Shown here: one piece after another, positions 40,864 through 52,827 of the stretch
How the letters are laid out: each line of letters opens with the position of its first letter
How positions within the stretch are numbered: position 1 is the stretch's first letter
NCBI RefSeq assembly: GCF_002208115.1
Contig: NZ_CP020946.1
Coordinates: 2,170,001 to 2,234,000 of the forward strand
Length of the DNA: 64,000 nt
Direction of reading: 5' to 3'
DNA from: Bdellovibrio bacteriovorus
GTDB lineage: Bacteria; Bdellovibrionota; Bdellovibrionia; Bdellovibrionales; Bdellovibrionaceae
Notes under the pieces: model-generated
Told to the model about the DNA's origin: nothing
What the model saw: only the letters and a program-made list of their open reading frames with translations
The model's database searches: none
Position numbers and translations under genes: made by a program

Positions 40864-40914
40864 GGACAAAATACCCGTTGTCCAAAAACGACCAGGACAA
40901 GATCAGGCTTGTCC
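40864..40914 (+). ncRNA. Tandem hairpins in the 5' leader of the gene at 41005
   Basis: GGACAA (40864-40869) pairs with TTGTCC (40878-40883), and GGACAAG (40895-40901) pairs with CTTGTCC (40908-40914). Both are preceded by CCA, a 31-bp period. They fall inside the predicted leader transcript and do not code for anything recognisable. They may form an mRNA-stability element, a binding site for an RNA-binding protein or an unrecognised regulatory RNA. Confidence 0.45.
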
Positions 40915-41004: not shown

Positions 41005-41469
41005 ATGAAAAACGTATTCGCTATGATCGCTTTGTTGATTTCTGCTTCCGTGGCATCTGCTCACACTGCTGACACTTCCTGGGAAGTTCTTATGGCTGAC
41101 ACCAACCTGAAAATTGATGCTCCGGTTGTATTCATGGGTCACGCGGTGGACTACACATTCGTGTGTGCTGATGGCAACATGCTAAGAACTAAAAAGGCCG
41201 TTGCTCAGCGTGAAACTATCTTTATCGGCAAAAACCGTTCTAAAGAAGTCATCACTGGCTACAAGTACCTTTACACTCCGATCAAATACACTCGCACAGT
41301 TTCTGATTGCAAATACATCGGTAAAAACCGTGAAGTTTGCACAGACAAAGTGGTTTCCGGCACTTACCCACTGACTGTAAACGTGAAGGTTTCCAAAAAA
41401 ATGAGCTCTCGCAACGACACTTACAAATTCTTGTTCAACAAGGCTTTGACTGTTCCTTCTTGCCACTAG
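41005..41469 (+). CDS. Small secreted protein of unknown function
   Basis: 154 residues from ATG 41005 (AAAGGAGA 4 bases upstream). The signal peptide ends ASVASA (residue ~19). The mature ~135 residues hold four cysteines that could form two disulfides and basic motifs repeated with variation: IGKNRSKEV and IGKNREVCT, each in a predicted strand pair. No family recognised. Many codons end in T (GCT, GTT, ACT, CGT), unlike the C/G-ending neighbours, as often seen in highly expressed genes. It is a single gene with its own promoter and a strong terminator, probably abundant in the periplasm or exported. Confidence 0.75.
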   Translation: MKNVFAMIALLISASVASAHTADTSWEVLMADTNLKIDAPVVFMGHAVDYTFVCADGNMLRTKKAVAQRETIFIGKNRSKEVITGYKYLYTPIKYTRTVSDCKYIGKNREVCTDKVVSGTYPLTVNVKVSKKMSSRNDTYKFLFNKALTVPSCH

Positions 41470-41481
41470 TCTGCATTTTTC

Positions 41482-41512
41482 ACCCGGGGCTTGCATAGCA
41501 AGCCCCGGGTTT
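41482..41512 (+). terminator. Strong hairpin terminator
   Basis: ACCCGGGGCTTG (41482-41493) and CAAGCCCCGGGT (41499-41510) form a 12-bp stem with a 5-nt loop, followed by TTTCAATTTT. It isolates the gene at 41005 from the regulator at 41578. Confidence 0.85.
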
Positions 41513-41577
41513 CAATTTTGAAACTTGCCAAACTCGGGCGCCGCCAATAGGTCCTCTGGAAACAAGTGAGGTCGTCC

Positions 41578-42345
41578 ATGCAGGAATCCACCGCATCGAT
41601 TCAGGATCAAGTCAGCCAGGACATTGGCCGATTTTTGCAGCGTCATAAAGACCCGCGTAAAGGGCTGCTGCAATTGTCCGCCAAGACCCGCATTCACACC
41701 AAGACCCTGAGACGACTGGTCTTAAAAGAGCACAACCCGACGTATCAGACCCTGTACAAGCTTTATTCCTGCCTTATCGGAACTGCCGACTTGGGACAAA
41801 TGCTAAACTCTGCGCCGGTTCTGATTCAGGAAAAACTCAAGCGCACCGATCCGCAATTGAAGTCCTCCCCACTGCACAAATACAATGTCAGTATCGAACA
41901 GGAACTGATCAAGGACCCCTGTTTTTCAGAGCTCTATGTTCTTGCCGATACAAGACCTTTTGATCTGAAGTTTGTTCGCAGCCGGTTTGGTGAATATGGC
42001 ATCGAGATTCTTCACAAGATGCTGCAGTTAAACGTCCTGCGTCTGCTGGAAAACGGTCGCTATGCCTTAGGCAGCAACCGTTCAACTTTTTCTGCCGAGG
42101 CCATCAAAGCCGTTGGTCTTCGTCTGACCGAAAAGTATGCAAAGCCTTCTCGTACCGACGAAAACTATGCCAACTATATGAATTTGTTTTTTGAATCCAT
42201 CAACGAAGTCACTTATCGAAAGTGGCTGGATATCGATGTCCAGGCTTTCCAGGACAAAATGCGCCTGCTGGAAGACCCGTCATCCCGCGGGTCCTTACCG
42301 ATATTCATGTTCAATGTGATCGACACCCTTCAGGAGCCATCATGA
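41578..42345 (+). CDS. TIGR02147/DUF4423-like regulator coupled to an exported peptide
   Basis: 255 residues from ATG 41578, preceded by GTGAGG. An N-terminal HTH-like segment (residues ~15-70, LLQLSAKTRIHTKTLRRLV followed by NPTYQTLYKLYSCLIG) resembles an XRE-type DNA-binding domain. The C-terminal ~170 residues resemble the helical domain of TIGR02147 proteins, which are frequent in Bdellovibrio and Fibrobacter. The ATGA at 42342-42345 couples it to a 40-residue exported peptide. By analogy with peptide-sensing regulators, it could control or sense that peptide. This is an inference from order and overlap only. Confidence 0.65.
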   Translation: MQESTASIQDQVSQDIGRFLQRHKDPRKGLLQLSAKTRIHTKTLRRLVLKEHNPTYQTLYKLYSCLIGTADLGQMLNSAPVLIQEKLKRTDPQLKSSPLHKYNVSIEQELIKDPCFSELYVLADTRPFDLKFVRSRFGEYGIEILHKMLQLNVLRLLENGRYALGSNRSTFSAEAIKAVGLRLTEKYAKPSRTDENYANYMNLFFESINEVTYRKWLDIDVQAFQDKMRLLEDPSSRGSLPIFMFNVIDTLQEPS

Positions 42346-42464
42346 AGTTCATTATCTGCGTTCTTTTACTGACTCTTTTAACTGCCTCTGACGGTTCTGC
42401 ACGTGGTGGCGGGGCCGCTGGTGGTTCTGGAAATTCCTCGCCGAAAAACGGTAACAACAAATAA
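42342..42464 (+). CDS. 40-residue exported Gly-rich peptide, coupled to the regulator
   Basis: The product is MKFIICVLLLTLLTASDGSA plus RGGGAAGGSGNSSPKNGNNK: a clear signal peptide followed by a 20-residue Gly/Asn/Ser-rich mature part. Its start lies within the ATGA at the end of the regulator, so it is translated by coupling. It is too small to be an enzyme, and the composition suits a secreted signal or a matrix peptide. A second coupled pair at 51290-52827 encodes an exported protein whose predicted mature end starts RGPGG. Confidence 0.6.
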   Translation: MKFIICVLLLTLLTASDGSARGGGAAGGSGNSSPKNGNNK

Positions 42465-42641: not shown

Positions 42642-45056
42642 ATGCTTAAGAATGCTGTCGCCATGTGGCCCGTTTTGTTTTTCTCAATTGTTGCACAAGC
42701 TGCCCCCAACACACTGACTTATCAAGGGCGCATCGTTAAATCCGACGGTATGCCTTTGGAATACAACAACGTCAGCTTCCTATTTGAGATCAAATCCGAA
42801 GACGGCCTGTGCGTTTACTATCGTGAACAAAAAAACGGTGTGAACATGACGAACTCCAAAGGGGTTTTTGATGTGCCGCTGGGGACCGGGACGAAACTTT
42901 TTCCCACTTCCGGCAGCGTGGGCCTTAAAGAGGTCTTTGATAACTCCACCACTTTGGACTGCGCTGATGTGAACAACAATGTCGCCAGCAGCAAAGGTCC
43001 GATCGCCACTCAAGCTCGCAGACTGAGCGTGCAGTTTCATGACGGTGTTGGCTGGAATCTAATCACTCCCGACAACGAAATCCGCTCGGTGCCTTATGCG
43101 CACTTTGCCTCTTCGGCGTTGAAACTTGGAAACTATTCCGCCACCGATTTCGTGCGCACCAATGCCTTGCCCGCCGCCGCTTGCAGCGCAGGACAGGTGG
43201 TGTTTTTTGACGGCAGCGATTTCACCTGTGTCACCGACGCGGGCGGGACCGGTGTCATTTCTGATGTATTGGCTGGAACCGGCGTCACTGTCACCGGCAC
43301 CACCAGCAAAACCGTGAACGTCACCTACGGCACGACAACTGGCACTGCGGCTCAAGGCAATGACAGCCGTATCACGGGTGCGTTCCAGTCAGCCACGAAC
43401 CTGGGGGGCGATCTCAGCGGAACTCTTCCTAATCCGACTGTGGCAAAAATCCAGGGCATTGCCGTGGCGACAACAACTCCCCAAACAGGACAGGTTTATC
43501 GCTATGGAGCAACGGAACTTGAGCCAGTGTACTTTGGCGTTGATGATTTGCGTACGTCAACTGGGCTTGCGCAATTCGCAACCTCCTGTACGGCTTCTCA
43601 GACTCTGACCTGGTCGGCAGTCACAGATGCTTTTACTTGCTCGAACATCACGGGTCTTGATGCCGATGTGATTACGGCCGGCACGATTGACGCCGCCCGA
43701 TTGCCTTCATCGGTGACTTTGCCACAGATCGCAGCACCGGCAATCTCAGCAGCCGAAGAAGGCCGTATCTATTTTGATTCCACCGAGAAAAAATTCAAAG
43801 TTTCTCAAGGCGGTTCGGCCTATACGGATCTGGTTTCTGCCGTCACCTTCCCGCTACGAGGTGCCAGTGGAAGTGCGGGGCAACCTAGCTATTCCTTCAC
43901 CACCGACACCGACACCGGAATGTTCAACCTCGGTTCCAATTCAATTGCCCTCAGTACAGGTGGCACGTCCCGCTATCAGATCTCAGACAAGATGCATAGA
44001 ATGGGTGATATGGGATCAGGAACCAACAACCCTTCGGGTTTTGCGTTTGATTCCCGGTACTACGGAGGCGGCAGCAGCTATCACACCGGCCGCTTTACCG
44101 TCACTGGCAGCAACACTTTCACAGCAAATGCCGGGATCTCCGGACCTGCGGCAGGCTTCTCCAACTCCGTTTCCGGCACGGTTGCCGTCAGCGGTGATCA
44201 GGGCGCAATGGAAGGAACCAGCCTCATGAGCGTTTCAGGAGGCTTCACAGGAACCGCCTACGGTGTTCGTGGAACAACCACACTCAGCACACCCAGCTCT
44301 GTCCCGTCAACGACCGTTGTCGGTCTGCAAACAGGCCTTTGGGGTCTGGCGAAAATGGGTAACACTGCCAACCTACCGACAGCTCTTAAAGTCAACGCCA
44401 TCACCTCGGACTTTCTGCTTGATGGCACCACAGGCAACGGAGTCACTGTCGATCAAGGCGCCGGACTTGAAATCAGATCCAGCATTTCTTCCTTCGACAC
44501 TTTAAATCAATTTACGGGTGTGATGATTCGCGCTCCTACGGGCACAGGCACGATCACCAGTAAATACGCGATTCTGACTGAAGCCAATGCCGGTTCAGTC
44601 GGCATCGGCACCCTGACGCCCGCCTACATGCTGCATGTGAATGGAACCGCGGGTGGCACTTCGTGGGCCAACACTTCAGACCGCCGTTTCAAACGCAATA
44701 TCGCCACCATTGATTCCAGTCTTGAAAAAGTTCTGCAACTGCGTGGTGTGACCTATGACTGGCGAACCGAAGAATTCCCGCAAAAGAATTTTGAAAAAGG
44801 CCAGCAAGTGGGCTTGATCGCGCAAGAGGTTCAAGCCGTGTTCCCGGATGTCGTTACGAAAGACAACGACGGTTTCTTGGCTGTTCAATACGCCAACCTT
44901 GTTGCTCCTTTGATAGAGGCGATGAAAGAATTCCACGCAAAATGGAACTCTGAAAATGAAGCTTTGAAAGCGGAAAACGCCATTCTGAAGCAGCAGGTTC
45001 AGGCCCTGCAAAAGTGGGCTTGCCAGCAGGACCCAACGGCGGACTTCTGCCGCTAA
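42642..45056 (+). CDS. Fibre/adhesin with C-terminal peptidase S74 chaperone (MAT-type)
   Basis: 804 residues. The signal peptide ends VAQA (residue ~20). The N-terminal domain (NTLTYQGRIVKSDGMPLEY to ~150) is the type found in Bdellovibrio cell-surface proteins. The middle (~150-660) is rich in Gly, Thr and Ser with beta-strand repeats and trimeric-fibre-like stalk (for example GNYSATDF). The C-terminal S74 domain has the self-cleaving Ser679/Lys684 pair in TSDRRFKRNI, IAQEVQAVFP, then a coiled coil (~765-795, ENEALKAENAILKQQ). S74 domains trimerise and autocleave. Bdellovibrio MAT proteins are known to be displayed at the prey-contact pole. Prey recognition is inferred. Confidence 0.82.
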   Translation: MLKNAVAMWPVLFFSIVAQAAPNTLTYQGRIVKSDGMPLEYNNVSFLFEIKSEDGLCVYYREQKNGVNMTNSKGVFDVPLGTGTKLFPTSGSVGLKEVFDNSTTLDCADVNNNVASSKGPIATQARRLSVQFHDGVGWNLITPDNEIRSVPYAHFASSALKLGNYSATDFVRTNALPAAACSAGQVVFFDGSDFTCVTDAGGTGVISDVLAGTGVTVTGTTSKTVNVTYGTTTGTAAQGNDSRITGAFQSATNLGGDLSGTLPNPTVAKIQGIAVATTTPQTGQVYRYGATELEPVYFGVDDLRTSTGLAQFATSCTASQTLTWSAVTDAFTCSNITGLDADVITAGTIDAARLPSSVTLPQIAAPAISAAEEGRIYFDSTEKKFKVSQGGSAYTDLVSAVTFPLRGASGSAGQPSYSFTTDTDTGMFNLGSNSIALSTGGTSRYQISDKMHRMGDMGSGTNNPSGFAFDSRYYGGGSSYHTGRFTVTGSNTFTANAGISGPAAGFSNSVSGTVAVSGDQGAMEGTSLMSVSGGFTGTAYGVRGTTTLSTPSSVPSTTVVGLQTGLWGLAKMGNTANLPTALKVNAITSDFLLDGTTGNGVTVDQGAGLEIRSSISSFDTLNQFTGVMIRAPTGTGTITSKYAILTEANAGSVGIGTLTPAYMLHVNGTAGGTSWANTSDRRFKRNIATIDSSLEKVLQLRGVTYDWRTEEFPQKNFEKGQQVGLIAQEVQAVFPDVVTKDNDGFLAVQYANLVAPLIEAMKEFHAKWNSENEALKAENAILKQQVQALQKWACQQDPTADFCR

Positions 45057-50423: not shown

Positions 50424-51290
50424 ATGGCCCATAAGAACAAGACCAACTACAGCCCGTATAAAGCCCGCCAAGAAGCCCGTCATGGGTCCAAAGGCGCTGG
50501 CGCACCTCCTGCGACCTCCAACATGGGCCGCCATAAGAAACCAGAGACGATCTATGACATCCATGAGGCCAATGATCGCCTTGCTGATGTCTTCCGCAAT
50601 CACGGATTTGATCTGGTCAGCCACAGCCAAAGGCAGCAACTGGCGCACTTTTACCGCCTTTTGATGCTGAATCAGGAAAAAGAGAACTTCACGCGCCTGT
50701 TGAAACTGCGCGATGTCGCGATCAAACACTTTATCGACAGCATCATCATCATGAAATACACGGACCTTCAGTTCCCATTGCTGGACGTGGGCACCGGGCC
50801 GGGCTTCCCGGGAATTCCGCTTAAAATCATGTACCCGGATCAGCAGATCCTTTTGGGTGAAGGCGTTCAGCGCCGTGTGGAATTCTTAAAACATGTCCGC
50901 AGCGAGATGAAGCTACAAAAGCTTGACATCCTGGGCCGCAACATCAACAAGCACTGTGTTTACCCTGTCCGCGGCGCCATCACCCGCGCAGTTGAAGATA
51001 TTGGCAACACCCTTGGGAACGTGATCAGCTGCCTTGAAATCGGCGGCCGCGTTTATTTCATGAAAGGCCCCGGCGTGGGTCCTGAGATTGAAGCTGCGAA
51101 AAAAGACTGGGCCGAGTACTACAAACTGGTTCAGGACGTGGCGTATTCCCTGCCGCAGACCCCACATGAACGTCGCTTGGTCGTTTATGAAAAAATCAAG
51201 AACATGCCTTTGCCGGAAGAAGACGAAGGCGAAGAGCTTTTGATGGACGAACTTTCCAACGAAGAAAAAAGACGCTGGGCTAAATACTGA
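50424..51290 (+). CDS. rsmG: 16S rRNA m7G527 methyltransferase RsmG
   Basis: 288 residues. The SAM-binding core LLDVGTGPGFPGIPLKI, GEGVQRRVEFLKHV and CVYPVRGAITRAVEDIGNTL follows the RsmG (GidB) pattern. The N-terminal ~60 residues (MAHKNKTNYSPYKARQEAR) form a basic extension absent from typical RsmG (~210 aa), and the C-terminus is also longer and acidic (PLPEEDEGEELLMDELSNEE). It methylates G527 of 16S rRNA at the decoding site. The stop overlaps the next start (TGATG). The usual mnmG/parAB neighbours are absent from this window. Confidence 0.9.
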   Translation: MAHKNKTNYSPYKARQEARHGSKGAGAPPATSNMGRHKKPETIYDIHEANDRLADVFRNHGFDLVSHSQRQQLAHFYRLLMLNQEKENFTRLLKLRDVAIKHFIDSIIIMKYTDLQFPLLDVGTGPGFPGIPLKIMYPDQQILLGEGVQRRVEFLKHVRSEMKLQKLDILGRNINKHCVYPVRGAITRAVEDIGNTLGNVISCLEIGGRVYFMKGPGVGPEIEAAKKDWAEYYKLVQDVAYSLPQTPHERRLVVYEKIKNMPLPEEDEGEELLMDELSNEEKRRWAKY

Positions 51291-52417
51291 TGTCTGACTC
51301 CACCCAGAACACCTCATTGCAACTGGCACGTTTGCAGCACCGTAAAGGGGCGCTGCACGAGGCCCGTTTATTGAGCGAAGAGGCCATGGTGGAAGCCTCG
51401 GCCCGCGGACAGTCCCAAGACTGGATTGAATCCGCCCGTCTTTACTTCCAGTGTTGTCATGAGTTGGAAGAGCTTTCTGAAGCTCAATCCGTTATTGATC
51501 AAACGATCAATTTAAGCCGAAACACTTCGGATGAGCGCTTGCAGGGCATGGCTGAAAACCTGATCGGCTCCTGGCTTTTGGCCAACGGCAAATTGCAGGA
51601 ATCTCAAGACTACATCAACTCAGCCATTGAGAAAGCCACACAATCTGGCGATCTCGACACCTTGGTGCGCGCGCTGTTCACCAATGCAATGTCCCGCGCC
51701 TTTGAACCCGCTCAATTTGCTCAAAGCCTGCTGCAACTGAACAAACTCGACACCATTCTGGCAGAGATGGACAACGCTGAAATGCAGCTGACGTCGCGTC
51801 TGTTGCGCACCCATATCTTCACCCAAACCGGGAAGCTGGAAGCTGCGAATGATCTTTTGTGGGACTGCTATGAACAGGCCAAACTGCACGGCTTCCACCT
51901 GCTGATTTCCCGTATTCTGGCGCAGATGGCCTTTGTAAACCGCGAACTGGGCAACAAAGAAGCCTATCGCATTTACGCCGAACTGGCTTTGCGTGGAACC
52001 GACAAAACCCGTCTGCCGCGCGTTTATAAATTCATCCGTCAAATGTGCCCTGAAGATATTGTTCGCAATGCACCTCAGTTTGATTTCCAGATCGACGAGG
52101 CGGCGCGCAGTGTTCAGGAGCGCACCAAGGGCCTGATTGACTTCCGCAATCAGCATATTCTTTTTGACCTGGCTTTATTGTTCATCAAAAAAGCCGGCAC
52201 CCGTTATTCCAAGGAAGATCTGATAGAAATCATCTGGCAGCAGGCTTATGACCCTGAACTGCATGACAATCTGATTTACGTTTCGATCAAACGTCTGCGC
52301 GCCCTGCTTGAGCCTGACATGGAAAGCCCAAGATACATCCTGCGCGACCGCAAAGGTTATTACTTTAATCCGCAATCATCTGTGCACTTCAGACAATCGG
52401 AGGAAGCTACTTTATGA
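51290..52417 (+). CDS. TPR-like regulator with C-terminal winged-helix DNA-binding domain
   Basis: 375 residues. Residues ~5-245 are helical repeats in TPR style, with repeated Ala/Leu-rich pairs (for example KLEAANDLLWDCYEQAKLHGF). Residues ~285-365 form an OmpR/PhoB-type winged helix: TRYSKEDLIEIIWQQ, then NLIYVSIKRLRALLEPD as the recognition helix and RDRKGYYFNP as the wing. There is no receiver domain, so the TPR part probably senses a peptide or protein. It overlaps rsmG upstream (TGATG) and the exported-protein gene downstream (ATGA at 52414). Confidence 0.78.
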   Translation: MSDSTQNTSLQLARLQHRKGALHEARLLSEEAMVEASARGQSQDWIESARLYFQCCHELEELSEAQSVIDQTINLSRNTSDERLQGMAENLIGSWLLANGKLQESQDYINSAIEKATQSGDLDTLVRALFTNAMSRAFEPAQFAQSLLQLNKLDTILAEMDNAEMQLTSRLLRTHIFTQTGKLEAANDLLWDCYEQAKLHGFHLLISRILAQMAFVNRELGNKEAYRIYAELALRGTDKTRLPRVYKFIRQMCPEDIVRNAPQFDFQIDEAARSVQERTKGLIDFRNQHILFDLALLFIKKAGTRYSKEDLIEIIWQQAYDPELHDNLIYVSIKRLRALLEPDMESPRYILRDRKGYYFNPQSSVHFRQSEEATL

Positions 52418-52827
52418 AAACACTCCTGTTAGTAATTCTCGCTGTTTTCAGTATTTCAGCCCATGCCCGCGGCCCGGGTGGTGACCCCGTCATTCCATGG
52501 CCAACGTTTGTTTCACTGACTCCGGTCACTTGCGAACAGCTCCAGGGCGACTGGGTGGCTTATGATCACAACTCCATCTGGTTTGTGAATCTGGAAATGC
52601 GTGAAGGCGACGCTCTGTCCACATTGCGCATCAAGTCCCATGCCCTGTTCACACACAAAGCCACCGGTTGGCTGGAGGCGGACGGTCCGTTGTTCTATGG
52701 TAAGATCGCCATGGATCCGACCCACTTCTATGACGTGATTGTCTTCAGAGACCTGGACGGAACCAAGATTCGTATCATCAAAGGTCCGCAGAAATACTTC
52801 GACCTGAAACTTTACCGCCGCGAGTAG
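52414..52827 (+). CDS. Small exported protein coupled to the TPR regulator
   Basis: 137 residues. The signal peptide ends ISAHA (residue ~18), so the predicted mature end is RGPGGDPVIPW. The rest holds strands with aromatic residues (DWVAYDHNSIWFVNLEM, RIIKGPQKYFDLKLYRRE) and looks like a small beta-barrel or lipocalin-sized fold. No family recognised. The 4-bp overlap with the regulator implies fixed stoichiometry. Compare the 40-residue peptide at 42342 (mature end RGGG), also coupled to a regulator. A signal or a sensed partner for the TPR protein is possible. Confidence 0.65.
   Translation: MKTLLLVILAVFSISAHARGPGGDPVIPWPTFVSLTPVTCEQLQGDWVAYDHNSIWFVNLEMREGDALSTLRIKSHALFTHKATGWLEADGPLFYGKIAMDPTHFYDVIVFRDLDGTKIRIIKGPQKYFDLKLYRRE

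Follow-up and report, generated by a model that had tools for sequence, protein, structure and literature searches.

A regulator gene coupled to a 40-residue, apparently exported Gly-rich peptide in a three-gene cassette of Bdellovibrio bacteriovorus

Results

Comparison with related genomes indicates that a 40-codon open reading frame overlapping the end of a regulator gene in Bdellovibrio bacteriovorus is gene B of a three-gene cassette, A-R-B, which lies in the 64,000-nucleotide stretch of DNA analysed here (hereafter the window; contig NZ_CP020946.1, positions 2,170,001 to 2,234,000). The explanation that we prefer, to which we give an even chance of being right, is that the cassette is locally controlled, the regulator R acting on A and, behind a terminator, on R itself and B, while B is exported and works with A. 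All three genes are read on the forward strand. Gene A (41005..41469) encodes a predicted exported, all-beta protein of 154 amino acids with four invariant cysteines; gene R (41578..42345, in a frame that opens at a GTG at 41566) encodes the 255 amino acid regulator; and gene B (42342..42464) encodes 40 amino acids, made up of a predicted signal peptide (42342-42401) and the Gly-rich 20-residue mature peptide RGGGAAGGSGNSSPKNGNNK (42402-42461). Between A and R there is an intrinsic terminator on the same strand (41482..41510), a GC-rich 13-pair hairpin with a T-rich tail.

The ATG of B (42342-42344) overlaps the TGA stop codon of R (42343-42345) as ATGA at 42342-42345, confirming what an earlier note on this DNA had claimed, and this overlap suggests that B is made in step with R. 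An AGGAG ribosome-binding site for B lies on the forward strand within the last codons of R (42332..42336). The open frame of B extends upstream to a GTG at 42222, and the ATG at 42342 is the start that is conserved across species. Signal peptides were called throughout by a hydropathy rule and an Ala at position -1; by this rule and by eye the N-terminus MKFIICVLLLTLLTASDGSA, which precedes RGGG, is consistent with a Sec signal peptide carrying Ala at -1, in keeping with the signal peptide and 20-residue mature part starting RGGG that had been proposed.

A search for R homologues in 66 genomes of the family yielded 15 loci in 13 genomes, and the small downstream frame which the earlier note had proposed looking for was there: an open reading frame for a Gly-rich, predicted exported product lies directly 3' of R in all 15 loci, in a short form (39-49 residues) in 13 and in a longer form in the other two. 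The overlap was likewise kept, B starting at -4 relative to the R stop (ATGA) in nine loci and at -1 (TAATG) in four, with one at -8 and one right behind the stop, and GGAG-type ribosome-binding sites were found at the matching position in most homologues. Among other genes in the same regions only about 3 of 212 were coupled to an exported product (Fisher p ~1e-18 against the R-B coupling, the homologues not being independent). A homologue of A lies immediately 5' of R in 15 of 15 family loci. R is absent from 14 of the 24 genomes of the genus, and the cassette is thus dispensable.

The GGGxxGG core of B is invariant among the 13 short forms, the note having named conservation of the RGGG start as support for its reading, and this Gly-rich beginning of the mature part (the Gly head) hardly differs between species whose regulators are ~45% divergent. 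When this genome was compared with the two most closely related to it, dN for the mature part of B was ~0.02-0.05 and dS ~0.7-1.9; the mature part is more constrained than the signal peptide, with dN/dS well below 0.1. By these rates mature B is under strong purifying selection, and the low dN relative to dS indicates that B is a selected protein-coding gene in which the constraint is on the peptide and not on the DNA. A cause of the Gly head at the nucleotide level, such as an RNA site, was considered and is disfavoured, as the synonymous sites of the head vary freely. A genus-wide search for orphan copies of B away from R gave no convincing score.

The structure model of R was of moderate quality (pLDDT 72.8), with its C-terminal third poorly predicted. 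In the model residues 4-86 align with XRE and lambda-repressor helix-turn-helix domains (HTH; Z ~6.5-7.4), with Foldseek probabilities of 0.95-0.99 for R against SinR and DdrO, and residues ~102-190 form an ArsR/MarR-like winged helix with strands (best Z 8.9), behind which ~65 poorly predicted residues remain. As modelled, then, R comprises two DNA-binding domains and is too short to hold a TPR peptide receptor of the RRNPP kind as well. A fold search of the PDB matched R with HTH and winged-helix proteins domain by domain only, and a PDB sequence search returned nothing credible for R or A. Fold matches of R to ComR were set aside; they rest on the HTH and have low TM-scores, with rmsd values of 11-19 Å.

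The description of R as TIGR02147-like holds in a remote sense only. The TIGR02147 model matched neither R nor any of the 19 R family members scanned at the curated NCBIfam cut-off, and in this genome it finds other genes and not R, but a profile-profile comparison by hhalign did align R with TIGR02147 (96%, E 3e-9, colinear over 220 columns), where 20 column-shuffled controls reached at most 2.2%, and the match was weaker when the alignments were small. By these profile comparisons R is a remote relative of the TIGR02147 proteins and not a member. Some R proteins also show a weak resemblance to the HTHs of HigA-type antitoxins.

Proteins of the A family are ~155 residues long, carry a predicted signal peptide of their own and the four invariant cysteines, and have no Gly head. 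The structure model of A is all beta (pLDDT 84.7), and a fold search of the PDB with it gave no match above Z 2.5 and no convincing structural relative, so that the fold points to no function. Most homologues have a hairpin like the terminator at 41482-41510 in the A-R spacer. Paralogues of A are also found elsewhere without R; one in this genome (L113, G000:C1:1113920-1114378), lacking both R and the operator described below, adjoins an apparent FAD-dependent oxidoreductase gene, a neighbour that is also kept in several related genomes.

Upstream of A are two candidate operator dyads, GGACAAAATACCCGTTGTCC (40864..40883) and GGACAAGATCAGGCTTGTCC (40895..40914), both exact GGACAA-N8-TTGTCC and 31 bp apart, or about three helical turns. 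They are the only matches in the window, where 0.24 would be expected at up to 1 mismatch, and with spacers of 7-9 the 3.77-Mb genome holds no other exact match. When both copies were scored as a tandem (maximum 24), the region before A scored 19-24 in 12 of 15 family R cassettes and 16-18 in the remaining three, whereas 14 A paralogues without R scored 11-14, which is the level of random windows (mode 13); the few random windows with high scores are best explained by their including the operator itself. The second dyad is weaker in L040 and L041, L112 has no clear dyad and L069 has a single half-site. Related dyads built of GGACA/TGTCC elements, GGACATGTCC or GGACAT-N9-ATGTCC, stand before the unrelated A genes of the L068, L070 and L071 cassettes, which argues that the site goes with the regulator rather than with A. 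Across the genomes compared, the operator is thus conserved and linked to R, and R most likely binds the tandem GGACAA-N8-TTGTCC sites. No shared operator was seen before R or B; the A-R spacer contains the terminator.

The suggestion that the layout might recur across Bdellovibrionota was borne out in deeper relatives, where members of the R family are coupled to exported proteins of 100-180 residues with the same Gly head. In two deep loci of the family (L012/L041 and L027/L040) B has ~165 residues and consists of a signal peptide, the Gly head and a diverged A domain, and in Bacteriovorax (L112) it consists of the Gly head GGSGGIAGGSSTG and a domain 56% identical to that cassette's own A. 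In L068, L069 and L071, which come from other families of the order, the place of A is taken by an unrelated protein of ~100 residues, and B joins the Gly head to a copy of that protein, with A-B identities of 73%, 68% and 56% respectively; L070 has the same plan with an A-B identity of 27%. In L068 and L069, A and B from a single cassette resemble each other more than they do the copies in other cassettes. What stays constant across cassettes is the Gly head and the coupling to R, and the domain behind the head follows A; as that domain is swapped or lost while the head is kept, the head is probably the working part of B. The R phylogeny, built by maximum likelihood, groups all short-B loci in a single clade (97/99), consistent with the 40-residue form having arisen by one loss of the A domain.

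The regulators that the TIGR02147 model (Fsuc_second) does detect form a paralogous family, with 1 to 32 strong matches per Bdellovibrio genome, and like R they are often coupled by -4 or -1 overlaps to exported proteins with a Gly head. At 7 of the 12 TIGR02147 loci inspected in this genome the regulator is coupled at -4 or -1 to a predicted exported protein, and at an eighth the exported protein begins 10 bases downstream. In a sample of the genus 19 of 40 TIGR02147 regulators are stop/start-coupled to an exported protein, and 18 of these 19 partners have a Gly head (NGGG, GNGG or RGGG near the predicted mature N-terminus), compared with 1 of 71 background exported proteins. Many of the loci compared are orthologues, and the head pattern, like the operator consensus, was defined after the sequences had been seen, so that p-values overstate the independence of these observations. 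The TIGR02147 partners, including the pairs from this genome, fall into seven sequence families, and ten that were scanned gave no Pfam match above cut-off and no NCBIfam match. R differs from these regulators in being unmatched by the model and in its partners, which are A and either a Gly-headed copy of A or the head alone.

Some further loci resemble the cassette in part. L127 and L132 encode an A-like exported protein, a TIGR02147-looking regulator and an exported protein that has both a GTGGG/GNGGG head and a HELGHQ motif, which is the same cassette plan on a different regulator branch. Distant relatives of R in L074, L076 and L077 lie directly downstream of exported proteins; those in L076 and L077 have a Gly-rich stretch near the C-terminus (DGGEFSGGSRK and NGGEFSGGSRK) and that in L074 has one near its end. 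The window itself holds a second coupled pair, in which a gene for a 375 amino acid protein (51290-52417), helical-repeat-like by eye with a C-terminal winged helix, overlaps by ATGA a gene for a 137 amino acid exported protein (52414-52827) whose predicted mature part starts RGPGGDP. This pair (51290-52827) may likewise join a regulator, here possibly one with TPR-like repeats, to an exported Gly-headed protein.

Searches of Pfam and NCBIfam with R, A and B gave no significant match, and no member of the cassette is named there; a search of a phage collection found no DNA similar to the locus, and a first conservation scan on the broad alignment A4 found no sufficiently conserved stretch. The literature searched on Bdellovibrio peptide signalling contained nothing on this locus, and no mention of TIGR02147 was found in the literature searched. 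The module as a whole appears to be undescribed in these libraries and in this literature. A gene for a mosaic adhesive trimer (MAT) fibre, which includes an S74 chaperone domain, lies at 42642-45056, 177 bases downstream of B; such fibres are known in Bdellovibrio (PMC10769870). It is not part of the cassette, as MAT homologues follow the cassette in near relatives of this strain only.

Discussion

The earlier note had read the locus as a peptide quorum-sensing pair, new for a predatory Gram-negative, and while that statement about the host is reasonable for Bdellovibrio, and a DNA-binding regulator locked to a tiny, apparently exported peptide is indeed present, a pheromone pair of the Rap-Phr or Rgg-SHP type is not supported. 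The likeness to the RRNPP systems (Rgg-SHP, ComRS, Rap-Phr) lies in a regulator gene beside a gene for a tiny exported peptide and, for Rgg and ComR, in the XRE-like HTH. An N-terminal HTH of this kind is present in Rgg, ComR, PlcR and PrgX and not in Rap, and the peptide receptor of RRNPP proteins is a C-terminal TPR domain of ~200 residues, all helical. In a pheromone pair the 20-residue peptide, or a fragment of it, would re-enter the cell and bind R as in those systems. The small size, apparent export and strong conservation of a product locked to a regulator, and a regulator apparently acting on its own locus, speak for this. Against it, R as modelled has no space for such a receptor, and in relatives the R gene is coupled to exported proteins of full size. 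The Gly core, moreover, hardly changes across species whose regulators are only 55% identical, unlike a signal that bears specificity, and R belongs to a three-gene cassette in a Gram-negative with an exported A that the candidate operator faces. We therefore regard a pheromone as improbable. The main rival to our reading is that the Gly head marks regulator-coupled exported proteins for sorting or processing, and that the 40-residue form is a decoy or occupancy sensor for this pathway. The head's frequency in TIGR02147-coupled proteins of several unrelated families, and its rarity in the background, speak for this, but A is headless and yet has its own signal peptide, and the heads are short and variable in form and belong to no known pathway; on balance such a tag is rather unlikely.

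Two other readings are very unlikely indeed. One is that B is the decaying leftover of a former A-domain protein, as the single loss of that domain in the short-B clade might suggest; the purifying selection on the mature part, together with the overlap and ribosome-binding site retained in 13 loci after the loss, already disfavours it. The other is that B is a small membrane toxin and R its antitoxin or repressor. B does have a short, hydrophobic N-terminus next to a regulator gene, and the HigA-type resemblance of some R proteins points the same way, but an Ala at -1 ahead of a conserved Gly-rich mature part speaks for a signal peptide that is cleaved off, the ancestral B was a 160-residue exported protein and the candidate operator faces A and not R-B.

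The cassette, the overlap and the conservation of the head are evident in the sequence comparisons, as are the single loss of the domain and the conserved operator with its link to R, and we return to the locally controlled cassette as the reading we prefer. R would be a local regulator that binds the tandem operators before A and sets its expression, and read-through past the A terminator would lead to expression of R itself and of B; R would keep the amounts of A and B matched. B would be exported, cleaved and act outside the cytoplasm. Its ancestral form was probably the Gly head with a second copy of the A domain, of which this clade keeps the signal peptide and head, and the head most likely acts with A or with A's ligand, as a partner, competitor or assembly modulator; a role of this sort is favoured by B having once been a second copy of A, close to the A of its own cassette. 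It is also possible, though doubtful, that the cassette belongs to a so far undescribed system, widespread in Bdellovibrionota, of TIGR02147-superfamily regulators translationally locked to Gly-headed exported partners, with the head as their common active element (a tag, ligand or signal) and the 40-residue peptide as its minimal natural form, feeding information from outside, or from prey, back to the regulator.

What began as one odd open reading frame is now a testable module in a model predator. It has a regulator and a tandem operator that is nearly unique, together with a family of exported proteins and a peptide of 20 residues, and none of these parts bears a family name. The layout of the TIGR02147 loci suggests that a sizeable share of the predator's uncharacterised exported proteins are regulator-locked units, and such units would offer a way to study how the proteins that face prey are turned on and off.
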